Below, piece after piece: positions 3,614 through 41,250 of a DNA stretch of 64,000 nucleotides. The notes under the pieces are model-generated. The model searched no databases. It worked only from the letters and a program-made list of their open reading frames with translations, and was not told the DNA's origin. The position numbers were made by a program, and so were the translations under genes. Location of the stretch: NCBI GenBank assembly GCA_032622095.1, contig CP136062.1, forward strand, positions 226,004,578-226,068,577. The letters run 5' to 3'. Numbering within the stretch: position 1 is the stretch's first letter; each line of letters begins with the position of its first letter. Source of the stretch: Siphonodentalium dalli (taxonomy: Eukaryota > Mollusca > Scaphopoda > Gadilida > Siphonodentaliidae).

Positions 3614-3785
3614 TTTGCTGAAAGCTCATTCCAAAGCCACGTCTCCGGAAAATATTTCCTGACATGTGACACTGGTGCTATTTCCTTGTTGCTCACTGAA
3701 ACAGTCATTTTTTTCACGAAAACATTTGGCACCGCTCCGGCCATCTCCATCATAGGAGCGTCAAATACAATCCGTGGCATGGGCC
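3614..3785 (-). CDS. Variable bait exon V16 (last in the window)
   Basis: A 172-nt exon, acceptor CAATTTTTAG, donor GTAAGAAT, phase 1 to 2. It reads PMPRIVFDAPMMEMAGAVPN, VFVKKMTVSVSNKE, IAPVSHVRKYFPETWLWNEL, SAK. The opening PRIVF-A is reminiscent of V10, V14 and V15. A degenerate TTAA-type MITE ends 26 nt upstream of the acceptor. No further exon of the gene is recognisable between here and position 1, so more variable exons or the next constant exon must lie outside the window. Confidence 0.92.
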
Positions 3786-3809
3786 CTAAAAATTGAGTCA
3801 ACATGCAAC

Positions 3810-3995
3810 ATTAGCCATTTCATGACTGGAGCTTCCTGAAATTTTGCGAAAAACCCTGTGCCAATGCATTCTCTTATATATGCAAGTCTCCCATAGGGAG
3901 CCTTGCATATATAAGAGAATGCACAGGCCTAATAATATTTACCTTGACCTTTTAAGCCAGTGGATTCAATTTCTCTTATATATGCAAGGCTCTCT
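3810..3995. mobile_element. TTAA MITE, family III, degenerate
   Basis: Left end TTAGCCATTTCATGACTGGA (degenerate TTAACCCTTTCATGA), one palindrome (3860-3922), second truncated. Its outer end is 26 nt upstream of the V16 acceptor. Confidence 0.7.
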
Positions 3996-4212
3996 AAAAA
4001 ATTGATATTTCTTTCCAGAATGATATGTTTCAGGTATTCAAACAAACAAGACAGTCAATGACTGTGGAGACGCTCACCAGACTGTAAAGACTGGGACACG
4101 GAAGACCATAAGAGTTAGTACTTGTCAAATTCACTTAAAAACAAGTAGTCCTAAAGAGGGATGTAGCCTAGAGGGTCTCCGTTGAGCAGTGGGGTGTCCA
4201 CCTTGAAATATG

Positions 4213-5229
4213 TAGTGCTGAAACGGTTGACCTATTTTTGTAGCCGGTTAACCGCGACGTGTAACCGGATCATGACCGGTTATCCGCTGTTTTCTACCTT
4301 TGACTTCATACTGATTGTTTATACTATAATTTGTACCAATATATCAGCATAATTTGATTTATTAACTGTATGGCAAACTCGCGTAATGTTTACACAGACA
4401 GAGCTTGTATTAAACGAATGTAAATCACCAAACACGATCGTCACAAAGCCACGTGTTGACAACTTGGCAGAATGATGACACAGTGAACTAAAACTCGCTG
4501 AAAACAGTGTTTTCTGTTAGAAGACAATAAAATGCTGAGAATTAGTCATTAGGATGCAAATAAGTCCGACTGCAGGGGAACACCATTTTGATTCGAGTTC
4601 ATGCATTTGAACTTCATCGACTGAGATTACTCAAACTCAGTAATGTTAGAAGTATAGACCGAGTGTAGGTAAATAGGGTTGGTTCTCAGAGTTTGCACTC
4701 TGCCAATTTCTCTTTGAAATGTGCCCAGACATCTGATTTACTCATTTCTTGGGTATCCATGATACTATCTACAAGTAGTCAGCCGGAGAGTAGATGTCAA
4801 ATGACCACACTGTATACTGCAGTGAAAACGATTGTATTGATCTTTGCCGATGACCCAGTGGCGTCAGTGCACATGTTTACCGGACATCGGAACATCAAAG
4901 ATGACGTCATGCATCTTTGATGTGTAGCCGCCAATGTCAGACTATGTAATCTGCCATTCATAGAAGACTTGATCTGGCACCAGATTTTGACTTTTAATAC
5001 GCGTAATTTCGAATGTATACCCCTCTGAGTGATAACGTTTATAGCAAAATTTATAAAGTACCGTGTTTAAAAGCTACTGTTATCAGTCTATGCCGATTAA
5101 GGACCTGAATACGTTAGTTTTTATCAGTGGCATTGCATGTGTGTATTACATAGCGGTTAACCAGTTGATCGTAGTTCAACCGGTTGCCGACGGTAGCCGG
5201 TTGTCAACCGGATATCCGTTTCAGCACTA
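4213..5229. mobile_element. hAT-type element, non-autonomous, 1017 bp
   Basis: Terminal inverted repeats TAGTGCTGAAACGG / CCGTTTCAGCACTA flanked by a perfect 8-bp duplication GAAATATG (4205-4212 and 5230-5237). The ends are unusually rich in CCGGTT motifs (subterminal repeats such as TAGCCGGTTAACCG). No transposase domain is recognisable; a 75-codon ORF at 4693-4920 matches nothing I know. TIR form and 8-bp duplication are diagnostic of the hAT superfamily. Confidence 0.9.
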
Positions 5230-5239
5230 GAAATATGGT

Positions 5240-5640
5240 CCAGATCCCACATAGTCCATAGTCTGCTCCCTCCCAACTGAAGCAAACACACTCCCAAGTT
5301 CGTAAATTTGGAACAAATATGAACCCCAGTCACCCAAGGACCCTCCATACCAAATATATGCTAAATCGGCCCAATGGTTCTTGAGAAGTCATTCTGAGTA
5401 TTATTATGGAGGAATAGAGTTAAGACCCTGCTTTCGCAACTATTTGACCCAGTGACCTCATTTGAATAAATCTGAATATGAGTCGCCTAGGGAACATTCA
5501 CACCAAATATGAACCCATTTGGTCTTATGGTTCCGAAGATGTTTAAAGAATTGTTGACGGACGGATGGACGGACGGATGGATGGACGGACGACGGAGTGA
5601 TGACTATAGCTCCACCGGAGACTTCGTCTCAGGTGAGCTA
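5240..5640. repeat. Interspersed repeat ending in GGAC/GGAT minisatellite
   Basis: Contains ACACCAAATATGAACCCATT and GGACGGATGGACGGACGG, then CTCCACCGGAGACTTCGTCT. This combination is common in molluscan genomes (recognition from general knowledge). Confidence 0.5.
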
Positions 5641-5744
5641 AAAACTATGTATTATTTTTATTATATGCCCCTTAATTATTAATGTTCAAAGTTGATAAAT
5701 TAACTCTTATTTAATTAAATCATTAACTTAATTACAGCAGCGAT

Positions 5745-6822
5745 TAGGCTCCTGCGAATATTCGATATTCGATTCGAGATTCGATTCGAAAGTCAAATTC
5801 GATTCGAATTCGAGTCGAAATTGCCAACTCGAAATTTCGAATATACTATGACGGAAAAGTAGGCTGTTTCAGGACAAATACACATGTCAATCTTAGCTGT
5901 TTGTGGCATTTAATTCCAGAAAATTATGTATATATGCACATTATAATTCTTATTGTACATAGCCAACAATTAGCCACGATAGGACGACTAAATACGTCTG
6001 AATTATATAACTTTAAAATGGTAGCAAAAGCTAGCAGATAGCCAATGGACCGACGACGCGGTAAATTATAATAGCTATGAGACAGGGCTACCGATAGCGT
6101 TATCCATCGTCTATTCGATTCCGCTTTATGTAATATGGGTGAGGATGTAAACAACACATGTTCCTGGTGTCGAAAAGTGCATTTTGGCACTGTTCTCTTT
6201 TGAAGATGACTTTCAGTTTCAGAGTTTTCTTTTACAATGGACAAAATGTCGTCCATCATTCATGTTTATTTTAAACATGATAAAGCTGCAGGCACGTGTG
6301 ATGAATGCAACATGCATGGTGTATAAATCGCAAGCATCTGGGACAATGACCCATCTATGGAATCATCTGTTCAAGAAGCATCAACCAATACATGAAGAGG
6401 CTACACTGCGACTGTTGTTGCGTCTTCAAGTTTATAACAACGGGTGTTTCCGAATGCCGATTTGCAATTTTGAATGTACATGCAAACTGTAGAAATTTCG
6501 TGTGATTTTAGTTTGATAATCTGTTTAGTGGTAATATATTAATCGTTGTGATGGCCGCATGGACGTTTTAATCTGCTTTGTTTTCTTGACAATTATAAAT
6601 AGAAGTTAATAGTATATCAAACGACGGTTTATCGCCACATAAGTTCTGATGGAACTTCATGCATGTAGTTCATAGAACGTTTCACAAATAATCTAATCGT
6701 TGACAAAACATACCTAATTGAGAATGCAACACACAGATATGATTCGATTCGATATTCGATTCGATTTCGTGAATTTGATTCGATATTCGATTCGATCAAA
6801 ATATCCAATTCGCAGGACCCTA
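5745..6822. mobile_element. hAT-type element with BED finger remnant, 1078 bp
   Basis: Ends TAGGCTCCTGCGAAT / ATTCGCAGGACCCTA, flanked by a perfect 8-bp duplication GCAGCGAT (5737-5744 and 6823-6830). Subterminal regions consist of many ATTCGATTCGA repeats, probable transposase binding sites. It encloses a broken BED zinc finger, the usual N-terminal domain of hAT transposases. The catalytic domain is deleted. Confidence 0.93.
6184..6492 (+). pseudogene. BED zinc finger fragment of a hAT transposase
   Basis: Near 6285-6395 one frame encodes KAAGTCDECN and a neighbouring frame continues SGTMTHLWNHLFKKH. Together they give the C-x2-C ... H-x4-5-H pattern of a BED finger with its T--L--HL---H signature. 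A frameshift or small indel near 6310 separates the two Cys from the His part in the current sequence, and a stop closes the first frame. It lies inside the hAT element, which explains its origin. Confidence 0.75.
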
Positions 6823-7166
6823 GCAGCGATGTATATATAATGTATCTAATTTACATCCATGTCAGTGTTTACAAACAGGAACAGTCACTAAAGTTGAAAT
6901 TGACATGTAGTATTATCGATTGATCAAGTGGCATCATAAATTTTTCGTTTTTGATTGACTAGTGGACAGTGAACATGTGCTCATTATTCAGTCCACCTTG
7001 ATGGCTAGTGTGTCCCTGGCAGTTGTTAGTTTCAGGTCAGCAAGCTACAGTGAAATACTGCATGGAACCTACAGTGAAATAACAAAATGCTATTTCACTG
7101 TAGCTCCGAAGAGAGAGATACGAGGATCTATGTTACGGTAAATTTCCGCTATTTTATAGGCAAGCA

Positions 7167-7284
7167 TACAGTGGGGAGAGCTTTCCGATGAATGGCAACA
7201 AGCCATATTTCCGACAAAATCCTGAAAAGTTACCCATAATTCTGCTGTGGTTAAGGGGTCGATTAATTAGAGCATTACTGTATG
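7167..7284. mobile_element. TA MITE family V (CAGTAATGC), right half
   Basis: Only the right arm is left: ATGGCAACAAGCCATATTTC to GAGCATTACTGTA. A separate small palindrome (ACCTACAGTGAAAT / ATTTCACTGTAGCT) precedes it at 7047-7105. Confidence 0.75.
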
Positions 7285-7780
7285 GTGCTGGACATTTGCA
7301 GAATGAGGTCCCCAGAGGGTCAACTTAGTGCTGCTACCCCACATAGCAGGCTAGCATCACCAAATTGATCCTCATTCTGCATGGTTTCATCAGCTGTGGG
7401 AGATCTAGATTCATCCTCTGGGGATCTCATTCTGTTTAGGCCTCATCTTCTCTGGAAAGTATCTTTATTATCAAATTAACATTTTTTTTAGTTTCTTTAG
7501 AAACTTCATTAGAAAGTAACTTTTTCTTTTTAGTTTAGTTTCTCTATATCCTAAAATTGGCAGACGATGCAATGCAAAATCAAGTTGCCCAATGGGTGCA
7601 CATCACCATCTTCACCATCTGGGTCTTAAATCTGATCCTAAGTCTCCAATAGCAGAAGAAGCTATGCAGAATGAGGTCCCCAGAGGATGAATTTTGTAAC
7701 GCTAACCCACAATGCAGGGTAGCGTCACTAAATTCACCCTCTGGGGACCTCATTCTGCAAATGTCCAGCACCATATTTTG
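7268..7780. mobile_element. Foldback element FB copy
   Basis: Left hairpin 7300-7385, right hairpin 7667-7755. Its ends read GGTGCTGGACATTTGCAG and its inverse, a variant of the family ends shared with 9180-9360. It lies about 165 nt downstream of the V15 donor. Confidence 0.8.
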
Positions 7781-7942
7781 AGATCTGATCCTCAACTAAA
7801 CTGTAGATCTTCATCGTCACCCAGTCAACCATTTCATCTTGCTGTCTCAAATGACGGGTGAATTATTTCACATTACAGGTTTAACACTATGATCTAAAAG
7901 TTCACAAACTCAAATAAAAAATATAGTAATATCCTAGCTTAC

Positions 7943-8099
7943 TCAGCACTCATCTGTGTCCATAACCATGTCTCCGGGAAATGTTTTCTCACATGGGTAA
8001 CCGGGGCAACAACGCTAGCTTCCTCAAACACAGCGATAGCTGGGCCTTTACGCATTATCACACCGTCATCAGCAAATGCAAATACTGGTCTTATAAATC
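7943..8099 (-). CDS. Variable bait exon V15 (recent duplicate of V14)
   Basis: A 157-nt exon, acceptor CCTCTTTTAG, donor GTAAGCTAGG, phase 1 to 2. It reads FIRPVFAFADDGVIMRKGPA, IAVFEEASVV, then APVTHVRKHFPETWLWTQM and SAE. GTAAG is the strongest donor type in the cluster (shared by V14 and V16), unlike the GTAGGT of the central exons. Confidence 0.92.
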
Positions 8100-8352
8100 C
8101 TAAAAGAGGCGAAACATTCAAGACAATGTCAGTTTATTTGGAGAGGAAAGTCGTTACCACGGAGACAGTTAATCCTGCTGGAAAAACCACTTACCCTGAT
8201 TAACCCTTTCTATACTAAATGGATTCTCCAAGTCAGTTATAAAAGTATACGTTGGAATGGACTATTATGAGGGATGAGTATTTAGAAAAGATGGTGCTTC
8301 CGGCGTTGGGCTCATTGATGAGTTGTTCCCAAGAAAATGTCCAGAACTTCAA

Positions 8353-8731
8353 TTAACCCTTTACCCAACAGAACGGCCCTGTGCCAATGCATTCTCTTAT
8401 ATATGCGAGTCGACCATAGGTCGCCTCGCATATATAAGAGAATGCATTGGCTTAAGACATATTAAAAACGATAAAATTGTCAAAGAATGTAGAAATATAT
8501 TATAAAAATTGATAAAACATGTAAGAAAAAATTATAAAATTGTTAAATAATGTAAGAAAAAATATTTTTTTAGGCCAATGCATTCTCATATATGCGAGGC
8601 GACCTATGGTCAATGAACCGGTTCCAATGATATCCATATTTGTATGGTGTTATTGAGACAGATCGAAGATATTTTAGGCTGTTGAAGCTTTATTTGGGCG
8701 TTTTTGGCCGTTTTGTTGGGTAAAGGGTTAA
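8353..8731. mobile_element. TTAA MITE, family II (TTAACCCTTTACCCAACA)
   Basis: Flanked by TTAA; ends TTAACCCTTTACCCAACA and its inverse TGTTGGGTAAAGGGTTAA. Contains palindrome CCAATGCATTCTCTTATATA-type modules at 8395-8450 and a second, damaged one near 8575. TTAA target and CCCTTT ends suggest piggyBac-like mobilisation (inference). Confidence 0.85.
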
Positions 8732-8802
8732 TTAGTTCAACAAACGACGATCACTCATAAAACTATAAATTGAAATAGTCTATTAATCATCTGGAGTGGA
8801 GC

Positions 8803-9031
8803 TTAACCCTCTCATGATGGGAGCTGCGCTGGTGCAGCATTAAATATCATGTGCCAGTGCATTCTCTTATATATGCGAGTCTCCCATAGGGAGCCACCCA
8901 TATACAAGAGAATGCACTGGCTTATACGGTCCAGGTAAATATTGTTAGGCCAATGTATTCTCTTATATATTTGAGGCTCCCTATGGGAGACTCGCATATA
9001 CAAGAGAATGGATTGGCACAGGGTTTTCATA
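8803..9031. mobile_element. TTAA MITE, family III
   Basis: TTAACCCTCTCATGATGGGA at left, two palindromes with GTCTCCCATAGGGAG loops (8855-8925, 8945-9018); the right end is lost. Confidence 0.8.
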
Positions 9032-9179
9032 TGATCTATGCTTAATTGTAAATATTTCCTTCTCGACTCGGGACCCAACTATCGGCGATAAACTAATGAA
9101 AATTATTTCGCCATCCGGAGTCACTGCATTTAATTAATATATAAGAATGGCGGTGTGTGCTGTCAATTTTAATTCAGAC

Positions 9180-9360
9180 TAATTGGTGCACATCACCATC
9201 TGGGAACTTAAATCTGAGTCTAAGACTCCACTAGAAGATGAGGCCATACAGAATGAGGTCCACAGAGGATGAATTTAGTGATGCTAGCCCACTATGCAGG
9301 GTGGCGTCACTTAATTCATGCCTCTGGGGACCTCATTCTGCGAATGTCCAGCACCATATC
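9180..9360. mobile_element. Foldback element FB, truncated copy
   Basis: Only the central part and right hairpin (9248-9342) remain. It corresponds to 7590-7780 and was duplicated together with V14/V15. Confidence 0.75.
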
Positions 9361-9491
9361 TTCATCGTCACCCAGTCAACCATTTCATCTTGCTGTCAAA
9401 TGACGGGTGAATTATTTCACATTACAGGTTTAACACTATGATCTAGAAGATCACAAAGTCCGTTAAAAAATATAGTAATATCCTAGCTTAC

Positions 9492-9648
9492 TCGGCATTC
9501 ATCTGTGTCCATAACCATGTCTCCGGGAAATGTTTTCTCACATGGGTAACCGGGGCAACAACGCTAGCTTCCTTGAATACAGTGATAGCTGGGCCTCTAC
9601 GCATTATCATATCTTCATCAGCAAATGCAAATACTGGTCTTATAAATC
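9492..9648 (-). CDS. Variable bait exon V14 (recent duplicate of V15)
   Basis: A 157-nt exon, acceptor CTATTTTAG, donor GTAAGCTAGG, phase 1 to 2. It reads FIRPVFAFADEDMIMRRGPA, ITVFKEASVV, APVTHVRKHFPETWLWTQMNAE in pieces. It is nearly identical to V15, including flanks (9178-9800 against 7560-8260). I count 11 nucleotide differences within the exon, eight of which change the protein, and none in the middle stretch covering VVAPVTHVRKHFPETWLWTQM. Confidence 0.92.
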
Positions 9649-9834
9649 CTAAAATAGGCGAATAATTCAATACAATGTCAGTTTATTTGGGGAGGAAAGT
9701 CGTTACCATGGAGATAGTTAATTCTGCTGGAAAAACCACTTACCCTGATTATACCTTTTTTTTACTGAATGGATTCTCCCAGTCAGTTATAAAAGTATAT
9801 ATTGGAATAGTCTATTATTAATTGGGAGAGGTGC

Positions 9835-10042
9835 TTAACCCTTTCATGATGGGAGCTGCGCTGGTGCAGCATTAAAGATCCTGTACCAGTGCATTCTCTT
9901 ATATCTCTCCAATAGGGAGCCTCACATATACAAGAGATGCACTGGCTTACAAGGTAAATATTTTTATGCCAATGTATTCTCTTATATATTGTTAGGCTAG
10001 TGCATTCTCTTATATATGCGAGGCTCCATATGTGAGGGTTAA
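9835..10042. mobile_element. TTAA MITE, family III, internally deleted
   Basis: TTAACCCTTTCATGATGGGA at left and GGGTTAA at right; palindromes degenerate. Confidence 0.75.
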
Positions 10043-10334
10043 AGACATATTATGGACTTGTTCGGGTGCGTGAACTTATAAGTTAGTATTCAGGTGCTAT
10101 TAGAGGAATGTAGCCTTCTACTAACATCATTGAAAATCTCAAGCAAAATGACCATACCACTCCATAGAAAACATCGTCTGAACTACGTTCAATTGTAAAT
10201 ATTTACTTCTCGAATCGGGATGCAACTATCGGCGTTAAACTAACGAAAATGATTTCGCCATCGGGAGTCACTGTATTTAATTAATATATAAGACAGTAAT
10301 ATGACAGTGTGTGTTATCAATTTGGAAAAACAAC

Positions 10335-10401
10335 AACTTTGAGAATTAAGATTATTCTCCATTTTATATTTGATCACCCTACCGGAGTGTTTCACATCAC
10401 T
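10335..10401. repeat. Single-copy relative of the 56-bp satellite
   Basis: GATTATTCTCCATTTTATAT ... GGAGTGTTTCACATCACTTT matches the satellite unit of 47.9-52.7 kb almost base for base but occurs once, cut by a TTAA MITE at its TTAA. Confidence 0.85.
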
Positions 10402-10664
10402 TTAACCCTTTCATGAATGGAGCTTCCTGAAATTTTGCAAAAACCCTGAGCCAATGCATTCTCTTACATATGTGAGTCTCCCATATGGAGCCTTGCATAT
10501 ATAAGAGAATGCACTAGCCTAACAATATTTACCTTGACCTTGTAAGCCAGTGCATTTTCTTACATATGCGAGACACCCCTATGGGAGACTCGCATATATA
10601 AGAGAATGCACTGGCACAAGATCATTAATGCCGCACCCGTGCAGCTCCATCATGGAAGTGTTAA
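10402..10664. mobile_element. TTAA MITE, family III, full copy
   Basis: TTAA at both sides (10402-10405, 10661-10664). Inserted exactly in the ACTTTAAGA site of a single-copy relative of the 56-bp satellite. Two palindromes. Confidence 0.85.
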
Positions 10665-13450
10665 GAAATGTAAGCAGACACAGATGAAATGGTAATACAA
10701 GTGTAGAAGGATTTCTATTAATTGGTGGGATATATATGCTCAGATACCGGTAATAAGTTCAAAACAGCCTGTGGTCTTGTTGGACTTATTATACATCTAA
10801 ATAATTTCCTAAATTAAGGGAACAACTTGTCTATGAAAATAGTATTTAGTAAAGGAAGGGTTTGAGAAATGTTATGTACTTATTTCAGTGAATTCAATTG
10901 AAATGTAAGTACCCAGACACCTCTCCCCTGGCCTGCAGATTTCAGAATTATGTGTAACATATTTTCCGTTTGCCTGGGTTGGGCTTAAGTAACCCATGGG
11001 TTACCTTAAGAGTTAAACAAACTGTTATAATCACCACAACTGGTATGTTAATATGACCGGCCGTGCCAAACGGCAAAAGGATATCTGACCGGAAGTTGGT
11101 TTCATAAAAGTACTCTGGAAAACCGAAAGCGAGGCTGCTCAGTTTGTGTGGAAGTACTCGTGGGAAACAGACAATTTGCTGGCACTCAAAAACCCAGACC
11201 ACTTGTAAGTACATGGTATTCAATACTAATGGGTAACTCATTAAAGTAATAATTTTGAATATCTCATTTTGGGACTTGATTGTGCAATAATATAGCCTAC
11301 AGGTGAAAATCAGTGATCGCGAGACCTACAGAAAACTTTTCTCAACATGTTTTTTTTAAATAGACCCTGCCAATGTATACTTTTATGACTGAATGCGGGA
11401 GTCCATTTAGTATAGAAAGGATTAAGCTTCTTACAAACATTGAGTTGATCAGAAATACATGATTAATGGGCATTAAACCATCTTCATCAACGTTGGTTGG
11501 CTTACGTCGACGGTCTAATATGCTATCCACCTTACCGACTGAGCAAGTAGCTAGAGGCTGACAAATACAATGAACAATGGACCATTCCATTATAATCTTT
11601 GAAGGTTTTAATCTTAAATATGGTCGTCCACTTCGATGAGAGCTTTTTAATGTCTAATATTTTTGCAGCACACCATCACCTTATATGGAAAGCGATCTCA
11701 CTTTATATGGAAAGCAATAACACCTTAGGTTTTTATAATTTTTCTCAAATGTTATATTATTTGAAAGCTTATTATAGCATTAATATTTGTCCTAATTAAT
11801 AATAATTAATAATAACTAATATTAACAAGAAGTAAAGGTAAATAGGTTATTATGAGACTATATATATGCAGTGTTGTGTTCATGATACTATATAGTTTCT
11901 ACAGTCAATTATAATGAGATAAGATATATTGCTGAAAATATTCCAAGCCTTCTCATAATTAATATATCAATATTTTTTTGGAAATTTGACATGATCTGTT
12001 TGAAGAATTATAGAGAGAACTACCTCATTTGATAAAAAAAGAAAAGAAAGATGATAGAAAAAACAGCTGAAAATATCAGAAAAAACATTTCCTAGAAAAG
12101 TGATTTATTCAGTTGATAATTTAATAAAGCCACATGGCGGTTTGCGCTCCAAAATACACCCAATAATATTCAGTTGATAAATACCTGAATAACTTTTCTA
12201 AGAGCGTTATATGTCCCAGACAGATGTATTGAAGTGATAAAAACTTTGAACACAATGTACGGGCTCCGAACAAAAACTGTGGCACTCGTTCATCTGAATT
12301 CTGGAATCGGAAACGGAATGTCCGGAAATTGTAAAGTGTGATTTCTTAACATGAAACTATTCATATTTCACGCACAACTTTATCTGTTTTAATCATCCAA
12401 ATTACGTACTACCATAAATGTTTTAGAAGAAAGACTGCTCTAGGTTTGCAGTTGCAATTTTTACGCGACCATTGACTAAAATTTTGAACTGGCCCAATTT
12501 AAACGAAACAATCTCAAATTTATAAAAAATTATAAAAAACAAAACACATATTTTCAGTGCTTTATTGATCAATTTGTTCGGGAATCTTCCGCGGAGGTAA
12601 GTTTTGATATACCTCTTACAAAATTACTGCAAAATCATGAATATATTGATATGCTATGGTGCAGTACAAGCAAGTGTGCTCAAGTGTGGTAACCTACCAA
12701 CATAATATATTAAAATGATTGAATTGCGCTCCAAGCTATGTACAGGTGTAATCGGCAATTCAATGCAAGTGTTGAATATATAACTGGGTTAATTAATGCA
12801 TATTCAAAATATATCTGTCAACCCATGCTCTGATATAGAGGATCTCTAACGAGTCACAATTCTATACAAAATTTATTAACTGAGAGCACTAAATTTTAAT
12901 AAAGCCGAGCTTCAATGAGGCTGGACTAAAATCTATTAGAAAAGGTTAATTAATTTTGTATAGAATTGCGATGAATTTGAAAACAATTTTATCACATAAT
13001 CACATTTTAGCAAGGATAAACGATCTTGAAATGGCTGGGGTTAAAACAAATTAATATTGATTTCCTTATCACAACCAAAAAGGAAGTAACAACACCTTCA
13101 AGAAAAAATATAGTTCCATTTTAAATGTGTCCTTTCATGTTGACAAAAATGTTCAACAACCCTTATCACCAATGTTTATCTCAAAGTCAACACTAAATAA
13201 CCCAGCACAAATCGAATATCATAATTATATTCTAATTAACATAATAATAAAGTTCCAGCATTGACATCAACATCATTGTGCTCTTATATCACTGTGCCTG
13301 CCGATTTTACACATGTGGGTGCCGATTTTACACATGTCTTACTAAAAATATATAAGGCTGGATAGGCTAATTATGTGATAAAATTTATTCCCCAACCAAG
13401 GCTTAGCTTCCAATGTCACTTAGCAGTGGATTTCTCTCCTATGAACATAC
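10665..13450. other. Intron, nothing recognised
   Basis: AT-rich DNA between V14 and V13. A 97-codon minus ORF at 10948-11241 has no known domain; 11401-11424 (CCATTTAGTATAGAAAGGAT) is an end of the TTAACCCTTTCTATACTAAA type. Nothing else stands out. Confidence 0.6.
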
Positions 13451-20386: not shown

Positions 20387-20463
20387 GTTCAAGTAAGATA
20401 TATATAGCAAATAGCCATGAGTTAAATTATCTGAAGTTATAGTCTGCATGACGTTCAACCTAC

Positions 20464-20608
20464 TTGGCTGACAATTCCGCCCAGATCCAAATTTCTGCGA
20501 AAAATTTCTTATATGACTTACTGATGCAACAGGAGAAAAGACCATAGTTTTGATTACAAAATAATCAGAAACATTTTTTCTCCAATTTGGCCTCCAAAGT
20601 CCAGTATG
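20464..20608 (-). pseudogene. Dead variable exon between V11 and V12
   Basis: Homologous to V12 along its length. One base is missing in the codons for the motif Arg-Lys (AAGAAAT against AAGGAAAT in V12), so FPETW is read out of frame. The position of the V12 acceptor (TTTAATAG) reads TTTAATAA here, so the AG is lost. The right boundary is by homology and approximate. The donor GTAGGTTG is intact. Confidence 0.8.
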
Positions 20609-20870
20609 TTTATTAAACCTAGTTGATAAAGAACACGTTTGGCTCAGAAACATGCAGGGCTCATGTCGCCATTTGCCAAATGCAGAAAAATTATTTTCAT
20701 TTAAAAAAAAAAAAACATACATATTTTTAATTTCATAAATTCTTATTACACTGTGAGAAGACTTGGAATATGTATTAAATTATTTTAATTAATGAATATA
20801 GTAATTAACATCAATATACAGTGATTAGCAATGAGTTATCTGAAATTAATTCGCATGACATTTAACCTAC

Positions 20871-29185: not shown

Positions 29186-29332
29186 TTAGCTCTCAAACCA
29201 TCCCACAACCATGTTTCAGGAAAATATTTCCGAACATGATTAAAAGGTAGAGTCGGATCATTACCCCCGTGTTTGAAGCCAGACCGGGGCCACCATCTCT
29301 GAGTACTCCTACTTCCTCCAGCCAAACATTAT
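29186..29332 (-). pseudogene. Dead variable exon (sister of V6)
   Basis: Clearly homologous to V6 over its length but with two independent lesions. The acceptor dinucleotide AG is AC (ATCACAC instead of ATCACAG), and 7 nt (TGTATCT in V6) are missing from the bait part. This makes the length 147, a multiple of 3 instead of 1 modulo 3, and breaks the frame. The donor GTAGGTC and its AGGTCAAAGGTCA flank are intact. It would not be spliced and could not keep the frame. Confidence 0.85.
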
Positions 29333-29682
29333 GTGTGATCAATGTATTACATTATATAGCTTCAGTTATAATACTTATATATCACACTCATATAATGAGA
29401 CAGATGTTTTTTTTCTCTAGATAGAAACTGGAAGCGTCTACGTAATTGGCACCGAAGCAGTTGGGAATTCAGAGTTGCCCAATAAATACGCACCCAGCAG
29501 AAACATCTTTGGTAATTAAAAGTTTAATATAGGCATAAATATAAACATAACATTATATTAAGGTGAGTGTAAGGCTAAAATGGTGCCTACAGGAAACAAG
29601 TGGAGTCCAGTTGAAGAATAAGAGAATAAAAAAATCTACAGGACATCAACCGCTACACAAATTTTAATGACCTTTGACCTAC

Positions 29683-31516: not shown

Positions 31517-31734
31517 CTGTGATAAATGTACATTATATGGCTTCAGTTGTGTATGACTGATATAATGAGACAGATGTTTTTTTTCTCTCTAGAAACTGGA
31601 AGCGTATATATATATATATACGTAGCAGGTACAGAAGCAGTTGGAAATTTAGAGTTGCCCATTAAATACCCACCATAGAGAAACATCTTTGGTAACAGTT
31701 TAAAGGCACCGTTTGGCACGGATGGCCGTCGCGG

Positions 31735-32060: not shown

Positions 32061-32221
32061 CACTGCATAAATAAATATAAACATTATATCGTTATGAGCA
32101 CTGCCGCTAAAATGGCGCCTACAGGAAACAGTCGAGTTCGGTTGAAGACTATAACTAAATAGAAAGCTAAATCTACAGAAAATCAACCATTACTACAGCA
32201 ATTTTAATGACCTTGACCTAC

Positions 32222-32384
32222 TTAGCTGTCAAACCAGTCCACATCCATGTTTCAGGAAAATATTTCCTAACATGAGTGATCACGGGTGTCGGCTCTTGGT
32301 TATTAGCGTTATTGCCGGTTGCATCGTTCGAGGCCCCAGGGAGAGCGTCCATTCTCATCACGTCATCAAACATAATATTTTTAT
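32222..32384 (-). CDS. Variable bait exon V4
   Basis: A 163-nt exon, acceptor TATCACAG, donor GTAGGTCAAGGTCA, phase 1 to 2. The bait part is KNIMFDDVMRMDALPGASND with the same Asn-rich stretch as V3, then THVRKYFPETWMWTGLTAK. It is the V3 sister by tandem duplication; the two differ mainly in the first third, where the bait loop would be exposed. Confidence 0.9.
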
Positions 32385-33063
32385 CTGTGATAGATCAATT
32401 TTATACGAGTTTTAAAGACATATCATGGACTTATTTCTTGTAGCAAGCCAGGGTTCACTCACTTTTTTTTTAATGGCATCTCTTCATGATTTATGTATTT
32501 TTTATATAAACACGTCATTAGAAAAGGCATTTCGGTGAAATTTTCGAAGTTAAAACGGAAAATGAAGTGGTAAATAACGTTCACTGGTATTACAAAATTA
32601 GGACTAACCGCCTGCTAACTAAACGGAAAAACTATTAAATACATTTGTTAGCTATGATTGGATATTTGTTAAATTATTAAAAATCACCAATATAAGTTTA
32701 ATGATACACCGATATTGCAACAAGTATCATACAAGGTATAGTTTCAGATTGGCCAGCATATCTTCAGACAGAAATCCGATTGCGCGAAAAATGAGTCTGG
32801 CGAGTAGGAGTCCTATATATACTGTGGCAAAATCGTAAAATAGTACAGCAGTGTGCAGCCAATCAGAACACGAGAAAGTCACGTGAGATATAATATAGTA
32901 TAATAATGTGGTTGTGTTAGCTGCCTGATATAGTTTAAGTTGATATATTGGACATTAATTAGATTAGTTAAAATAATATGATAGTTTTACAGCTTGGTCA
33001 CAGAAAGTTAAATCTACAGACCATCAACCATTTCTACTGGAATTTTAATGACCTTTGACCTAC

Positions 33064-33223
33064 TTAGCTGTCAAACCAGTCCACATCCATGTTTCAGGAA
33101 AATATTTCCGTACATGAGTGATGCCGGGTGACGGCTCCTGGTTATTAGCATTATTGCCGGTTGCATCGTTCGAGGCCCCAGGGACAGCGCCCATTCTCAC
33201 CACCATGTCATCGAACATAATAT
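33064..33223 (-). CDS. Variable bait exon V3
   Basis: A 160-nt exon, acceptor TATCACAG, donor GTAGGTCAAAGGTCA, phase 1 to 2. The bait part is IMFDDMVVRMGAVPGASND followed by an Asn-rich NNANNQEPSPG, then THVRKYFPETWMWTGLTAK. It is a close paralogue of V4 (neighbouring exon), differing by an indel and several substitutions near the start. A copy of the foldback element begins 32 nt upstream of the acceptor. Confidence 0.9.
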
Positions 33224-33254
33224 CTGTGATAGATGAATTTTATATGTGTTTTAA

Positions 33255-33710
33255 ACAAGCCTGAGTTTAGTTTGCCTGTCATTTGTAGAATGAGGTCCCG
33301 AGAGGGTGAATTTAGTGACTCTATCCCGCATAGCAGGCTAGCATCACTAAATTCACACTCTGGGGACCTCATTATGCATGGCCTCATCTGCTATGGGAAA
33401 CATAGACTCAGATTGAAGTTCCCAAATGGTGAATTTTGTGATGTACACCCATTGGGAACCTTGATTATGCAATGTGTAGTCTGCCAATTTTGGGATATAG
33501 AGAAACTAACCTAAAAAAGAAATAGAATCCACGTGAAGAAGTTTCTAAATTTTATAATGAAGAAACTTTCAAGAAAAGATGAGGCTTAAGCAGAATGAGG
33601 TCCTCAGAGGGTGATTTTAGTGATGCTAGCCCACTATGCAGGATAGCATCACTAAATTCACCCCCTGGGGACCTCATTCTGCAAACGACAGACACACTAA
33701 ACTCAGACTT
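33255..33710. mobile_element. Foldback element FB, complete copy
   Basis: Left hairpin 33288-33375, central inverted pair 33415-33480, right hairpin 33590-33690. Starts CAAGCCTGAGTTTAG and ends with the inverse (ACTAAACTCAGACTTG). The left end is 32 nt upstream of the V3 acceptor. Confidence 0.85.
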
Positions 33711-34408
33711 GGTGGTTATTAAGCCTGGGAATCAAATTTAAAGATACATAATCCGAACTAACGGTCCTAAATTACTATTTCTTTGGCTTCAGGGCAAACA
33801 ATATTTGATTCGAGTCGAGGAACCCACCCATTAGACCTAAGAGATCAGATATAAATTTTTGAAATCTGTTAATTTTCACCACCTCGAATATTTGGCAGCT
33901 TTGTAAATATTAGACAAGCCCGACCAATATACTCTTGACACCAAATTGCGTTGAACAAAATGTTGATATATAACACATTTTGACAGTGGTTATCATTATT
34001 TTTTTGGTAATTAATCAATTTTGATAACTAAAGCATCTCTTGAAGAAATGTTGTTGTTTCCTGAATGTGATGATATGGGGACCATCAAATCAGATTGTGT
34101 ATTTTAAAGCCCTTTTAAGCACTTTTTGTATGATTGGGTAAAGAGTTTTTAAGGACTATTTTACTAAAGTACGTTACCTACAATAAACACATCACTCTAT
34201 GTCAGTTTAGTGTTAAAAATGGTGAAATTAACTCCAAAATTCACGTATGTCTATTATTATTCAAACATTCACATTTTTGTAATTGACACATAATAATGAA
34301 TAATGAATAATGTCAAAATTTATCAGAGAAATAAAGGAACTAATATAGAATAAGCAAGATAAATAAAACAGTTATAAATGAACAAAATTCATGCAAACAC
34401 AAATATAT

Positions 34409-34634
34409 ACAGTAGGGCCTAATGCCCTAAATAATCGACTCCTTAACCACAGCAGAATTACGGGTAACTTTTAAGGATTTAGTCAGAAATATGGCTTGTT
34501 GCCATTCATTGGAAAACTCTCAGTGAGAGCTTTCCGATGAATGACAACAAGCCATATTTCCAACTAAATCCTGAAAAAAACACCCCATAATTCAGCTGTG
34601 GTTAAGGAGTCGATTATTTAGGGCATTACTGTAC
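34409..34634. mobile_element. TA MITE family V
   Basis: Ends TACAGTAGGGCCTAATGCCC and GGGCATTACTGTA, loop at CTCTCAGTGAGAG; arms slightly diverged. Confidence 0.85.
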
Positions 34635-34639
34635 AAGGG

Positions 34640-34860
34640 AAGAATTGTTCGTACGAGATGGATGTCGAGGGAAGACTTTCGGTTCACAATGATCGAGATG
34701 GACATCGAGGGAAGACTTTCGGTTACGACGATATATGAATGAGATGGACATCGAGGGAAAACTTTCGGTTACGCCAATCGAGGGAAGACTTTCGGTCACG
34801 ACGATATATGAATGAGATGGACATCGAGGCAAAACTTTTGGTCACGACGATATGACAGTA
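34640..34860. repeat. About 46-bp tandem repeat, 5 copies
   Basis: Units contain GAGATGGACATCGAGGGAAG and ACTTTCGGTTACGACGATAT. Confidence 0.88.
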
Positions 34861-35033
34861 ATCAGGACCAGACATACCCACCCAGGAAGAGAGTCGATGG
34901 AACGCACTCATATCTCATCAATTTATATGCTAATCTTTTGTTTTTTCTACAGTTTCTACACTCAAAATTAGTTTTTATCTCCGAACCCACAATTATATTG
35001 ATAAACGAGCAGGGTTTTTAGCTAGGTCGGTGT

Positions 35034-35062
35034 GTGGGGGGGGGGGGGGGGGGGGGGGGGGC
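35034..35062. repeat. Poly-G tract
   Basis: GTGTGTGGGGG followed by an uninterrupted run of more than 20 G. Length is probably an assembly or sequencing uncertainty. Confidence 0.95.
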
Positions 35063-35274
35063 GTAAAAGGGACCCGATTTTCAGAGGTCGAGTTACAATG
35101 GCAAATACAAGCTTAACTTTTCATATCAAAAGTATGATTTTGGTGAGAAAGACTATATGTGATGTGACCGACAGGTAACGAAAAAAATGTGACATGTGAG
35201 CAGACAGGATTTAATTTGAAATTGAGATATTTTAGCTATTGTCTGGTACTGTACGATAAATCAATCATCATCAG

Positions 35275-35541
35275 TTAACCCTTTCATGATGGGACCTGCG
35301 CTGGTACAGCATTAAATAACATGTGCCAGTGCATTCTCTTATATATGAGAGTCTCACATAGGGAGCATCCCAAATATATGAGAAAGCACTATTGGCTTAC
35401 AAGGTCAGGGGTAAATATTGTTAGGCCAATGTATTCTCTTATATAAGCGAGACTCCCTATGGGAGACTCGCATATATCAGAGAATGCATTGGCACAGGGT
35501 TTTCGCAAAATTTCAGGAAGCTCAAGTCACGGAAGAGTTAA
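35275..35541. mobile_element. TTAA MITE, family III, full copy
   Basis: TTAACCCTTTCATGATGGGA to GAAGAGTTAA, two palindromes (35325-35395, 35430-35492). Confidence 0.85.
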
Positions 35542-36343
35542 TCCATCCATATATTTCTGTCAGAAAATTATGAATTTAAATGGGAATGAATAATCGTATG
35601 CCATGAAAATTAACTTTGATAAATAGCCCCGTTGACAACGTCATAAATATTAATTCAGTTCAGAATTAGATTGATCTGATATTACCATATAACATCTAAA
35701 TGTTTGTGACCAGGGTTGTCTTTTGTTCATAAATAAATATTGTGGTAATAACCTGGTCGTAAACGGAGTGATTTTAAAATTATGGCAGTAATGTTATAGC
35801 ACAATACAACTGGCCAGCATTATCCTCGGATTTCAAAATTTTCATATGAGGGCAAAAAACAATCATCATCCCATCCTATCCTAGGTTCTACGGACCCTAC
35901 ATTTTAACCCTGACCGAAACCCTGAAAGAGGTATCCAAAATAAGCCTTGAAATAGTTACATATTATTATCCATCCCTTAACTAACACTATTTCTGGTTGG
36001 GCAAAAGCTGCCACGTGATAATCCGGGAAAAAGTCATATTGAACTCCCGAATGTCATATTGGACTCCCAAGTGTGCAATATGACTTTTTTATCGGGACTC
36101 TATTAACTCTATTGCGAAATGAATCGGTGAAATTGTGATGCGCGCGTAACACTGGTGGATTTAGCAGACGTTTCACTTCCGCATTGAGTTTTTTTTTCAT
36201 TTCCATGTTTACTGTTCCTAATCATGCTTTCTGATGATCAAATACAGGCTTTTATAGAGAATTAAGTGCCAACAAGTACCAAAAAATAACCACAAAAGTT
36301 TTATTCCCAACATTTGGATAACATACAGATGGATAATAAAAAT

Positions 36344-36480
36344 GTCATTATACAATGTTTTGAACAGTATGAGTTTTTCTTGTACTCGTCCAGTTATGCG
36401 TGTCTCATCCAATAAGACTTTTCACCACAACCTGGACTCGTACAAGAAAAACACATACTGTACACAACATTGTATAATAA
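36344..36480. repeat. Inverted repeat in intron
   Basis: Arms ATTATACAATGTTTTGAACA ... TTTCTTGTACTCGTCCAG and the inverse CTGGACTCGTACAAGAAA ... ACAACATTGTATAAT. Confidence 0.8.
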
Positions 36481-36566
36481 CTTTATCTTATAAATAAGTG
36501 CGATCCAATCAACCCTCTCTCAGACTGTTCATGAATGGGCAGCGACCCGCATGATCCAAGATTACA

Positions 36567-36735
36567 TACAGTAATGCTCTAAATAATCGACTCCTTAACC
36601 ACAGCAGAATTATGGGTAACTTTTCAGGATTTAGTCGGAAATATGGCTTGTTGCCATATTTCCATCTAAATCCTGAAAAGTTACTCATAAAATTATGTTG
36701 TGGTTAAGGAGTCGATTATTTAGAGCATTACTGTA
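36567..36735. mobile_element. TA MITE family V, loop deleted
   Basis: ACAGTAATGCTCTAAATAAT to GCATTACTGT, with the distal part of both arms missing. Confidence 0.85.
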
Positions 36736-36756
36736 ACGATTTTATAATCAAGCCTT

Positions 36757-37172
36757 GAAATAGTGTGTCTGTCAATTGCAGAATGAGGTCCCCAGAGGGT
36801 GAATTTAGTGTAACATCACTAGATTCACCCTCTGGGGACCTCATTCTGCTTAGGCCTCATCTTCTGGTAAGTATCTATAGTCTCAAATTAACATTGTTTT
36901 TAGTTACTTTTTCCTTTCTGTTCAGTTTATATATCCCCTAACTTGCAGAAGATAAAATGCATAAACGGGGTGACTATAATGGGTGAACATCACCAACTTC
37001 AACTGGGGAACTTTAATCTGATTCTAGGTTTCCAAAAGCAGTTGAGGCCTCAGCAGAATGAGGTTCCCAGAGGTTGAATTTGGTGATGCTAGCCCACCAT
37101 GAGGGATAGTGTCACTAATTTCACCCTCACAGGACCTCATTCTGAAAATGACACACTATATCCAGGCTTGAT
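36757..37172. mobile_element. Foldback element FB copy
   Basis: Starts CAAGCCTTGAAATAGTGTGT, left hairpin with a shortened loop (36780-36850), right hairpin 37053-37145, ends CACACTATATCCAGGCTTG. The right end is 28 nt from the V2 donor. Confidence 0.82.
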
Positions 37173-37200
37173 TTTAATCATAAGCTGCGGTTTGACCTAC

Positions 37201-37324
37201 TTAGCAGCAATAGAATGATACATCCATGTTTCAGGAAAATATTGTCGAACAAGAGAAACAGGTTTCATTTTGTTACCATCTTCACCTTCACTATTCACTG
37301 ACTTGAAGCGATCCAATGCCAAAT
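37201..37324 (-). CDS. Variable bait exon V2 (shortest)
   Basis: A 124-nt exon, acceptor TTGATGCAG, donor GTAGGTC, phase 1 to 2. It encodes LALDRFKSVNSEGEDGNK, then VSLVRQYFPETWMYHSIAAK. It is the shortest intact member and the only one with Tyr in place of the second Trp/Phe of ETW-W and Gln after the motif Arg. A TTAA MITE begins 26 nt upstream of the acceptor. The intron beyond that MITE (37591-38040) is paralogous to the intron around the LINE at 17.2-19.6 kb, so the exon and its flank were duplicated as a unit. Confidence 0.85.
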
Positions 37325-37349
37325 CTGCATCAAGAAAATGAGAATAATC

Positions 37350-37590
37350 TTAACCCTTTAGTGCTAGGTCGATTTTTGTATCAACCATATACCCTGTGCC
37401 AATGCATTCTCTTATATATGCGAGTCGACCATAGGTCGCCTCGCATATATAAGAGAATGCATTGGCCTAACAATTTTTTTTTTTTTACAGTTTTTTTTAC
37501 AATTTTAATAATTTATTCTTATATTCTTTAACAGACTTATTTTGTAGGTTTAGGGCTGATGAGATCGGCCCCTGGCACTCAAAGGGTTAA
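37350..37590. mobile_element. TTAA MITE, family IV, near V2 acceptor
   Basis: TTAACCCTTTAGTGCTAGGT to CACTCAAAGGGTTAA with the shared palindrome (37395-37467). The inner TTAA lies 26-29 nt upstream of the V2 acceptor. Confidence 0.87.
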
Positions 37591-38040
37591 TTAAAGGACC
37601 CTTTAATTTTCGAGTCACTGATTATTTTTATTATAGTGCTTTGATATAGTTTTAATAACAATATATGACATAAATATGATTAAAATACTATAATGAATCA
37701 CCATTTGGAACGTCTGTGTCTCAGGTGGCCATAGAGTAATAGAAAATAGATGAAATCATAGAAACAATTCCTCCATTTCGCTCCCAGAATGCAACATAAT
37801 TCAAACTAAGAAAAAGATTTATTCCCCTTCATTGAAAATAAGTCCAAATGAAACTTAAGCACAGAAAACACGTCGATACCTCAACAAAAACATGTTCACA
37901 GTTTATTACACCAGATAAGTTGATGATACAATGTTTTGGAGCTCCTCTTTTAAATGCTATATAATATGGAATATATTTTATATAATGTGATCTGGGGGTT
38001 CGAAAATTAAGTTGGCCTTTCAAGGGAGACTGTACTCTAA
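37591..38040. repeat. Paralogous intron block (empty-site copy)
   Basis: Matches 17240-17434 plus 19309-19605 with the LINE absent (ACGTCTGTGTCTCAG, ATAATTCAAACTAAG, TTATTCCCCTTCATTG). A third, shorter relative is at 28330-28490 (ACAATGTTTTGGAGCTTCCT). Confidence 0.85.
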
Positions 38041-38072
38041 TTCCTGTAGCTGAGGGATTTGTTTAGCCTGAA

Positions 38073-38308
38073 TTAACCCTTTGAGTGCCATGGCCAATTT
38101 TTGTATCAACCCATATACCCTGTGCCAATGCATTCTCTTATATATGCGAGTCGACCATAGGTCGCCTCACATATATAAGAGAATGCATTGGCCTAACAAT
38201 CTTTTTTTTTATTTATACAATTTTAATAATTTATTATTATATTCTTTAACAGACTTATTTTGTAGGTTTAGGGCCGATGAGATCGGCCCCTGGCACTCAA
38301 AGGGTTAA
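38073..38308. mobile_element. TTAA MITE, family IV
   Basis: TTAACCCTTTGAGTGCCATG to CACTCAAAGGGTTAA; palindrome 38122-38194. Close sister of 37350-37590. Confidence 0.87.
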
Positions 38309-38766
38309 TAACAGCTAGGACCTTAACAAATAAGCCAAAGGTTGATACCAATGGAAATAGATATCGCCCTGGAATAATAGGAATCAGGGAGCTAAATGTG
38401 TTCCAGAGTCGGGGAGCGAGTACTCCGTGGAATGCTAAAGGTGAAGATAACTGAAGAATGACCTTCACCTGATACATGTGACACATTATTAAAGGATGAC
38501 ATCATGTGTATTTGATTTGTACATAATATCTAAATAATTTAAACTGGTGAATTAATGGGGGAATGGATTTTTGTTAGTGGGAAATTGATTTAACTAGCTG
38601 CTGTAGTTCTGGGTTTTTCCAGACCAAATTTGGCTGTGGGATAATAGTCCTGTCGTACACTTGGGGATTTATTTAAAAAGTAAACACATATGACCTATGA
38701 TTTTTCTTGCATTTTCGTGATCAACTGGTGTCAATCTAGCTGGGTAAACACCACAAGAATAGCCTG

Positions 38767-38855
38767 TTCAATTCAGTGAATTCGGTCAAAACGTTAACAC
38801 TGTCGCCTATGATAGGCGACAGTGTTAACGTTTTGACCGAATTCACTGAATTGAA
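38767..38855. repeat. Near-perfect hairpin, 41-bp arms
   Basis: TTCAATTCAGTGAATTCGGT continuing to GACAGTGTTAAC type sequence; the complementary arm ends ACTGAATTGAA; loop TATGATA. Immediately precedes the 31-bp minisatellite. Confidence 0.9.
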
Positions 38856-38912
38856 CCTATGGGAAACCATTTAGTTCAGTGATTTCTTACATGTTAGTGG
38901 ACCAAAATCTGT

Positions 38913-39572
38913 CAACTGTTGTGATTGGCTGACACTGATGTAATGCTTGCTGTGATTGGCTGACACTGATGTAATGATTGCTGTGATTGGCCGACACTGA
39001 TGTAATGCTTGTTGTGATTGGCTGACACTGATGTAATGCTTGTTGTGATTGGCTGACACTGATGTAATGCTTGCTGTGATTGGCTGACACTGATGTAATG
39101 CTTGCTGTGATTGGCCGACACTGATGTAATGCTTGTTGTGATTGGCTGACACTGATGTAATGCTTGCTGTGATTGGCTGACACTGATGTAATGATTGCTG
39201 TGATTGGCCGACACTGATGTAATGCTTGTTGTGATTGGCTGACACTGATGTAATGCTTGTTGTGATTGGCTGACACTGATGTAATGCTTGCTGTGATTGG
39301 CTGACACTGATGTAATGCTTGCTGTGATTGGCCGACACTGATGTAATGCTTGTTGTGATTGGCTGACACTGATGTAATGCTTGTTGTGATTGGCTGACAC
39401 TGATGTAATGCTTGCTGTGATTGGCTGACACTGATGTAATGCTTGCTGTGATTGGCCGACACTGATGTAATGCTTGCTGTGATTGGCCGACACTGATGTA
39501 ATGCTTGCTGTGATTGGCTGACACTGATGTAATGCTTGCTGTGATTGGCTGACACTGATGTAATGCTTGCTG
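38913..39572. repeat. 31-bp minisatellite, 21 copies, higher-order structure
   Basis: Unit TGCTGTGATTGGCTGACACT + GATGTAATGCT. All three minus frames stay open because 31 is not a multiple of 3 and the unit lacks stops there, giving 193-266 codon spurious ORFs. Each unit contains GATTGG (an inverted CCAAT). Variants follow a 7-unit pattern (217 bp) repeated twice. Confidence 0.95.
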
Positions 39573-40041
39573 GTGGTATTAATGGAAAACCTACATATTT
39601 CTTCAGACTTTGTACCAGGCCTAAGTTTAATGTGCCTGTCATTTGCAGACTATGGAAAATATTTGTCAAGGAAATGGTCTCGGACAAAATTGCGGATGAA
39701 GATGGCTAACTCTAAAATCAATTGGTAATACAGCCAAATTTCCTGATGAACAAGTGATAATACAGCCATATTTCGTTGAATGTTGATAACACGATTTGGG
39801 AAATTTTATACCATAGTTGACAGTGGTTAGCATTATTTTGTTGTAAATAATCGATTCTAATAACTAAAGCATATTCTGAAGAAATGTTGTTGTTGTTGTT
39901 GTTGTTGTAACTTGATATGGGGACCTCTGATCGGATTGAGTACCATTAAACATACGTGTCAGTAAATTACAAGTTTATATGTGAGCAAGACAAAAAAAAG
40001 CTCCCCAAACTCATGCAAGTATGATGCAACCTTCATTTGTT

Positions 40042-41070
40042 TTAACCTTTCAATGACTGGAGCTTCCTGAAATTTTGTAAAAACCCTGTGCCAGTGCATT
40101 CTCTTATATATGCGAGTCTCCCATAGGGAGCCTCACATATATAAGAGAATACATTGGCCTAACAATACATATACCTTGACCCTGTAAGTGTAACATTCTC
40201 TTATATATGCGAGGATCTCTATGGGATACTCGCATATATGAGAATGCACTGGCACAGGATCTTTAAAGGGGAAGGAAACCCTCAACAAATCAGGCCGTTA
40301 ATATATTTAGTATATCAACCATGATGCGATAAAACACCTCTCATTTCTCAGTTACATGGCATAATAGAAAACTCCTGCTAATTATTTATAAGATCATGAC
40401 GTCACAGCCTCACTTCGCGTTACTCATTTTTAGTACGTACATTTATAAAGGCTAGAACACTGAAATCATTTCGGCGTGTTTTGTTTGTTATTCTGCGCAA
40501 AATCCAAGCAATCACAACCTATTGAAGATGTACATAGTATTATAAGTCAAGATTATTTATGTTATAATTTTGAACAATTAATTTACTGCCAGTTAATGGC
40601 TGCATAACATTTGAATGTGGAAATCTCGGCCAAACTCACATGACTTCTGTATGTGCAAATATGGCAACCAAACAATCTTTCGCGAATTAAACTATAATTT
40701 AATTTATTTAATGTGCACAAAAAACATTCAATCTGCTGTTTTGTTTATTGTCATATCTAAAAACAAACTATTGTACGTGATACAGTTTAGTGTCAAGCAA
40801 CCAAGTGAGGCTGTGACGTCACAAACAATAAAGGGAGATAATATTTCATCCAAAATGGTGGCGTCAAGTTACCGGGGTAATTGCATGCGCAGGTTAGTTT
40901 GAGACGCCATTTAGGGCATTACTGTATCTCTGATCTTTGGGGCGATTTGAGCTGAAACTTTATATATGAACAGTGAACAGCTTGCTTCATGCACATGCCT
41001 GTTAGTTATGTTGTAGTTTCCTTCCCCTTTCATGCTGCACCAGCAGAAACTCCCGTCATCAAAGGGTCAA
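40042..41070. mobile_element. TTAA MITE, family III, interrupted by another element
   Basis: Left end TTAACCTTTCAATGACTGGA, two palindromes; right end (CTGCACCAGC ... CATCAAAGGGTCAA) lies beyond a 762-bp nested element. The right end stops 5 nt from the last base of the V1 donor GT, so it abuts the splice site. Confidence 0.82.
40267..41028. mobile_element. Nested inverted-repeat element, 762 bp
   Basis: Ends AGGGGAAGGAAACC / GTTTCCTTCCCCT, flanked by TTAA and TTCA. A further inverted pair around TGACGTCACAGCCTCACTT (40397) and AAGTGAGGCTGTGACGTCA (40801) lies inside. Inserted in a family III MITE. A 95-codon ORF (40615-40902) has no recognisable domain. Confidence 0.75.
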
Positions 41071-41075
41071 CATAC

Positions 41076-41250
41076 TCAGCTAAGATTGAATTCCATATCC
41101 ACGTTTCAGGGAAATATTTCCAGACATGAGTTTTAGGAGTGGAGGGTATGTTCATAATTGTGTCTTTCGCAGAAGACATAACTTCAGCATCAAAATTCAT
41201 TCCGGCATCATCATAGAACATCTCATTCTCATAAAGCATATACTGATATT
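41076..41250 (-). CDS. Variable bait exon V1 (first in transcript order)
   Basis: A 175-nt exon, acceptor AAATTTTCAG, donor GTATGTTG, phase 1 to 2. The bait part (YQYMLYENEMFYDDAGMNF) is rich in Tyr, Met and acidic residues and has no Arg. It then reads THVWKYFPETWIW. The Arg that is otherwise invariant in V(R)KYFPETW is Trp here. It is the only exon whose first codon is G|AA (Glu). The end of a TTAA-type MITE (TTGACCC on the minus strand) lies at intron positions +6 onward, right next to the donor. The exon is intact by sequence; its divergent first codon and motif set it apart from the others, perhaps as an old or specialised member. Confidence 0.85.

Follow-up and report, generated by a model that had tools for sequence, protein, structure and literature searches.

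Bait exons and constant exons of the gene

The 64,000-nucleotide stretch of the Siphonodentalium dalli genome analysed here (C2:226004578–226068577, i.e., part of contig CP136062.1; hereafter the window, with window positions counted from its first letter) carries a tandem array of 16 intact alternative exons for the bait region of what is very probably a single TEP gene of the A2M family. All 16 lie on the minus strand, from V1 (41250–41076) through V2 (37324–37201), V3 (33223–33064), V4 (32384–32222), V5 (31516–31363), V6 (29836–29683), V7 (28691–28556), V8 (27785–27635), V9 (25931–25775), V10 (23167–23026), V11 (21039–20871), V12 (20046–19899), V13 (13637–13451), V14 (9648–9492) and V15 (8099–7943) to V16 (3785–3614). 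A preliminary description of the window had already given this number and strand, and its outer bounds of the array, 3614 and 41250, proved to be exact. Without exception (16/16), the exons are bordered by an AG acceptor and a GT donor, have a length of 1 modulo 3, and are entered in phase 1 and left in phase 2. Each encodes a variable bait of 22–43 residues (as cut here) followed by a conserved tail (...RKYFPETW), the FPETW core of which is invariant in all 16 exons. The tail consensus of the preliminary description, i.e., (V/I)(R)KYFPETW(I/L/M)W, was borne out for this core, while its flanks were found to vary slightly in V1 (HVWKYFPETWIW), V2 (VRQYFPETWMY), V10 and V12 (KFFPETW), V13 (FPETWLF), and V14 and V15 (KHFPETW). 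The baits carry a net charge of –5 to +1, with 1–6 Lys/Arg each, and no cysteine occurs in any of the 16 exons.

Six-frame translation of the window revealed FPETW in frame 17 times on the minus strand and not once on the plus strand. The 17th copy belongs to a decayed bait exon between V6 and V7 (29186–29340, minus strand, upper limit approximate), from which the acceptor AG and the frame have been lost. Moreover, a profile search recovered a second decayed copy between V11 and V12 (20440–20800, minus strand, both limits approximate), the tail of which is split over frames; the 4.5 kb intron separating V16 from the constant exon D1 gave no additional bait exon in this search. The cluster had been thought to continue, possibly, below position 1 of the window, but the next exon found in that direction was D1 itself (window –893 to –1010), with no bait exon in between.

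When the genome (2.23 Gb in nine contigs) was searched with the degenerate pattern [KQ][YFH]FPETW, 34 matches were obtained, all on the minus strand, of which 17 make up the cluster in the window and 17 a near-identical second cluster (the 17 including the decayed 29.2 kb exon). The reversed control pattern gave 0 matches in the same 2.23 Gb, so that chance can be excluded as the source of the 34.

The array is preceded by the constant exons Z (64354–64166 in window coordinates, i.e., outside the window), A (58692–58841), B (56464–56592) and C (47103–47157), and followed by D1, likewise outside the window, and then D2, with Z, A, B, C and D1 all on the minus strand. Exon A (including LAVDKSILLM) and exon B both run from phase 0 to phase 0, and exon C (KAGLNFMSDLHLLNQQNS), the donor for the bait exons, runs from phase 0 to phase 1; A, B and C were located where they had first been placed, with the matching phases ascribed to them (donor phases of 0, 0 and 1). 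Since C is left in phase 1, D1 starts in phase 2, and the V exons have the phases given above, C plus one V exon plus D1 reads in frame. Four V exons between C and D1 would keep the frame as well, and none, two or three would shift it.

Ahead of the bait, the A2M_BRD domain (PF07703) was matched at C2:226068737–226068937 (exon Z; E = 9.6e-8; the TAG counted within this match is located at the acceptor of the exon) and at C2:226063299–226063418 (exon A, which holds part of the domain; E = 0.0025), both above cut-off. The bait is followed by the A2M domain (PF00207; C2:226003561–226003686 and 226000988–226001134) and, further downstream, by matches to the thioester domain (PF07678; C2:225989950, 225978875 and 225957985), with the GCGEQNM motif in the reading frame C2:225989947–225990141. 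The receptor domain (PF07677, A2M_recep) gave weak matches above the Pfam cut-off at C2:225940954–225941094 (E = 0.002) and C2:225940445–225940573 (E = 0.007), and the TGA counted in the latter falls beyond its likely donor. Joined into one protein, Z-A-B-C-V6-D1-D2 aligned in a single stretch with CD109 chain 9fx2_A (485–757; E = 3.5e-40) and with A2M chain 7voo_A (495–792; E = 1.9e-38), whereby the V exon coincides with the bait of either protein, ahead of R-K-[YH]-F-P-E-T-W. This placement agrees with the earlier assignment of the variable segment as the bait of the A2M family. Judged by its sequence, the gene is predicted to encode a CD109/A2M-like thioester protein and to span more than 120 kb from exon Z to the receptor exon.

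Complement C3, C4 and C5 carry a cysteine-rich anaphylatoxin domain in the place of the bait, and the absence of cysteine from the 16 V exons does not fit such a domain. The same absence sets the exons apart from MCR, in which a cysteine-rich LDLa domain takes the place of the bait (PMC7016707).

The second cluster and the divergence between the copies

The second cluster (C2:225693406–225730199) is located 315 kb from the first, with exon order and orientation unchanged and all 16 bait exons intact. Compared with the first copy, it shows two 6-base length differences (in V4 and V16) and no frameshift. Exon C and the sampled 3′ exons are present as well; exons Z, A and B had no match in the second cluster, each being found once, upstream of both modules. 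In the window, the intron before exon C contains a 56-bp satellite array (47879–52719; 87 copies, ca. 4.8 kb), which adjoins a 66-bp array (52715–55451). In the second copy, the 56-bp satellite upstream of exon C extends over ca. 44 kb (read or sampled; C2:225737178–225781479), up to a 100-N scaffold gap that ends it (C2:225781480–225781579). A 500-base probe from 17 kb beyond this gap gave a 96% match to sequence downstream of the second cluster (C2:225495927). The duplicated stretch hence reaches the gap via the satellite on one side, and on the other side is found as close as 17 kb to it.

We read this arrangement around the scaffold gap as the overlapping ends of two haplotype contigs, and the second cluster is most likely the other haplotype (i.e., one gene with two alleles). 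A true tandem duplicate, in which A and B would be spliced to either 3′ module of a two-tier locus with 32 baits, would fit the shared order and orientation, the second set of 16 intact bait exons together with exon C and the sampled 3′ exons, and the single occurrence of Z, A and B upstream of both modules. It is nevertheless improbable, since the copy ends within the satellite at the gap, and sequence past the gap again matches the downstream region, a pattern that overlapping contig ends of two haplotypes yield automatically; moreover, the substitution divergence in alignable introns is 1.5%. A real duplication with its junction inside the unresolved satellite would look similar, and the evidence for a haplotype is no proof. 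Part of the duplicated stretch was also matched, in inverted orientation and at 89%, at C2:225379048–225379557, possibly representing a third, older copy of the flanking DNA.

Outside the V exons, in alignable cluster sequence from which the listed tandem repeats were excluded (i.e., the intron baseline), the two copies differ by 485 substitutions in 32259 bases and by 98 indels, 78 of which are not multiples of three. The V exons differ by 46 substitutions in 2328 aligned bases (2506 by exon lengths), and no frameshifting indel was observed in them, whereas the intron rate would predict 5.6 (P = 0.004). The two copies agree on which exons are intact and which are broken, both decayed exons being defective in each (the one at 20.4–20.8 kb being 99% identical between them). 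Changes in the V exons amount to 32/1902 for replacement and 16/534 for silent sites, with 25 replacement and 14 silent changes in the bait part, and those in eight constant exons to 3/847 and 5/242, respectively (for one of the eight, TED3, the comparison covers 219 of its 225 bases and includes a gap of 6 bases). The replacement rate of the V exons equals the intron rate (32/1902 vs. 485/32259; P = 0.5), whereas replacements in the constant exons are less frequent than in either the V exons or the introns (P = 0.003 each). At silent sites, the V exons diverge by 0.030, i.e., at double the intron rate, which their total divergence slightly exceeds (P = 0.08). That replacements match the intron rate and frameshifts are absent indicates that the reading frame is held while the bait sequence is nearly free. 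In other words, the bait exons keep their frame and not their sequence, and the sampled constant exons keep both.

Proposed isoform choice and its alternatives

These data point to one TEP gene with 16 alternative exons for the bait, the phases of which fit one bait exon per transcript, and we assign a probability of roughly 85% to this reading. The plan originally proposed for the gene, with constant 5′ exons, 16 phase-matched baits and one shared downstream region, matches the observation that the A2M-domain exons (PF00207) occur once per cluster, past the last bait exon V16 (E up to 0.001). Splicing would link exon C to a single bait exon and the latter to D1, with products out of frame being discarded. 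The isoforms would then share one body and differ in the loop that it presents, which is free of cysteine and cleavable by proteases. In A2M biology, the conformational change and the thioester are set off when the bait is cut, and another bait would mean another triggering protease. A matching protease, be it a pathogen's or the animal's own, would cut the loop and provoke an A2M-type conformational change that exposes the GCGEQ thioester, upon which the attacker would be trapped or tagged and the receptor domain uncovered. The array itself probably originated by local exon duplication and was kept for variety, with frame and splice sites held and the bait nearly free to drift.

Several points weigh against this reading, the first being that isoform use and protease sensing are inferred from DNA. 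The 5′ end of the gene (MG1–MG4 and the signal peptide) could not be located, and a search with PF01835 (MG2), which short exons may escape, gave no match at the locus and one sub-threshold match elsewhere in the genome. Positive selection on the baits was found neither between the copies nor in 12 chosen exon pairs. Across these pairs within the array, bait dN/dS ranged from 0.31 to 0.92, and a value above 1 was reached by the short tails of 3 pairs, on 4–6 changes each. Between the copies, the bait had a pN/pS of 0.53 and the tail one of 0.89 (the latter on 2 silent and 7 replacement changes), with no difference between bait and tail (P = 0.70), and the contrast between V and constant exons in replacement to silent changes is not significant on its own (P = 0.14).

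A further such point concerns the exclusive choice of one exon. In the docking/selector system of Dscam, a single intronic element is complementary to partner elements, one in each of the alternative introns. A crude scan, in which 11-mers of both outer introns were compared with the remaining 16 introns (exact words, one species), revealed no pairing element of this kind: no word found its complement in more than 9/16 introns, the counts for the two orientations were similar (without a significance test), and the highest-ranking words seem to belong to dispersed inverted repeats. Exclusivity could consequently rest on the frame alone. Inverted-repeat elements with the core GGACCTCATT / AATGAGGTCC are dispersed across the window, with 26 core sites on both strands (examples being the elements at 2585–3540, 7302–7745 and 33289–33669).

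It might also be argued that use is confined to a few of the 16 exons, the others being decaying duplicates and the array a by-product of tandem exon duplication. The two decayed copies within the array would be expected in that case, as would bait replacements at the intron rate and the failure to find positive selection. We give this explanation little credence, since frame and splice sites are kept in 16/16 exons of both copies, frameshifting indels are depleted (P = 0.004), and the FPETW core is unchanged in all 16. Separate tandem TEP genes with one V exon each, an arrangement named beforehand as the one that would contradict a shared gene, found no support and are almost certainly not what lies here, since constant-exon matches occur once per cluster, PF00207, thioester-domain and A2M_BRD matches do not recur between the V exons, and every V exon donor is in the phase of the single D1.

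Other TEP genes and known bait arrays

A second pattern search gave 37 matches, i.e., 30 in the two clusters on C2 and 7 at C4:25.872–25.884 Mb, vs. 0 for its control. A second TEP gene (C4:25872350–25884190) carries 7 intact alternative bait exons plus a decayed one, and a third (C5:12.547–12.586 Mb, plus strand) carries 5 bait exons with FPESW, one acceptor of which is uncertain. Phases in both are as in the window gene, and the D1 exons of both start in phase 2. The third gene has a counterpart of near-equal domain scores at C5:7.712–7.756 Mb (minus strand), 4.8 Mb away and in opposite orientation, and this pair may be another unpurged haplotype. The resulting 28 intact bait exons (16 + 7 + 5) are those of the three genes read on C2, C4 and C5 and not of the whole genome, in which C3, C9 and the counterpart on C5 harbour further TEP loci. 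Their 1542 residues do not include a single cysteine. In a tree of the 28 exons, array neighbours cluster (with supports of 0.907 for V3–V9, 0.994 for V3/V4 and 0.977 for V14/V15), as expected from local duplication, and the bait exons of the C4 and C5 genes each form a group of their own (supports of 0.985 and 0.911, respectively); many deeper nodes lack resolution. Elsewhere in the genome, C7:147977601–147980100 was seen to contain an FMRFamide precursor of molluscan appearance, which includes ALSDDFFLRFGR and numerous copies of FMRFG(K/R). Searches for arthropod cuticle families and for molluscan haemocyanin gave no matches, but their controls gave none either, so that these negatives do not demonstrate absence.

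A more far-reaching reading, which we consider possible though rather doubtful, is that the three TEP genes share a phase-locked cassette with 28 intact baits in all, and that the 16-exon gene constitutes a germ-line library of nearly random protease triggers, subject to neutral drift in bait sequence but with frame, splice sites, FPETW anchor and freedom from cysteine preserved, and kept for variety itself and not for any particular sequences.

The nearest precedent is BgTEP2 of Biomphalaria glabrata, in which 12 tandem mutually exclusive bait-region exons, variable in length and sequence but conserved in their C-terminal part, lie within 30 kb and are documented by transcripts (PMC7016707). 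The window gene resembles BgTEP2 as a mollusc TEP with tandem alternative bait exons, which in the window gene lie between constant exons of compatible phases; the 12 exons of BgTEP2 are backed by transcripts, whereas the 16 intact exons described here are known at the level of DNA. Two sister genes of BgTEP2, BgCD109 (eight variants predicted and four seen) and BgA2M (three), undergo alternative splicing at the corresponding site (PMC7016707). CfTEP of the scallop Chlamys farreri has six mutually exclusive bait-like-region exons, far fewer than the present gene (PMC7016707). Bait splice variants are also known from Drosophila Tep2 (five) and shrimp A2M-2 (six) (PMC7016707), and from the tick A2Ms of O. 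moubata and IrA2M-1 (several; PMC7962413), which resemble the present case but are arthropod genes with small sets. In addition, amino-acid differences between snail strains are concentrated in the bait or hypervariable region (PMC9363628), and twelve A2M isoforms were reported for the fish Tenualosa ilisha (PMC6650032). Dscam1 likewise is an invertebrate gene with a large array of duplicated exons, which in its case are mutually exclusive and for which an immune use has been proposed; its exons encode Ig domains and not a protease bait.

The preliminary description had called the array larger than the cases known to its author, which is correct for the two it named, Drosophila Tep2 and the scallop TEP, but it left BgTEP2 with its 12 exons uncited. 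Searches of the open-access literature brought up no larger bait array, although subscription papers were mostly outside these searches and a larger one may be in print. The window gene belongs to a kind already known from molluscs, of which it is a larger example. Should transcripts bear it out, its set of alternative bait exons would surpass all those encountered in the literature searched (16 vs. 12), in a protein class in which the specificity of the trigger is set by exactly the segment that is swapped. The gene raises the testable question of whether an invertebrate, by splicing, equips a single effector body with many protease sensors.

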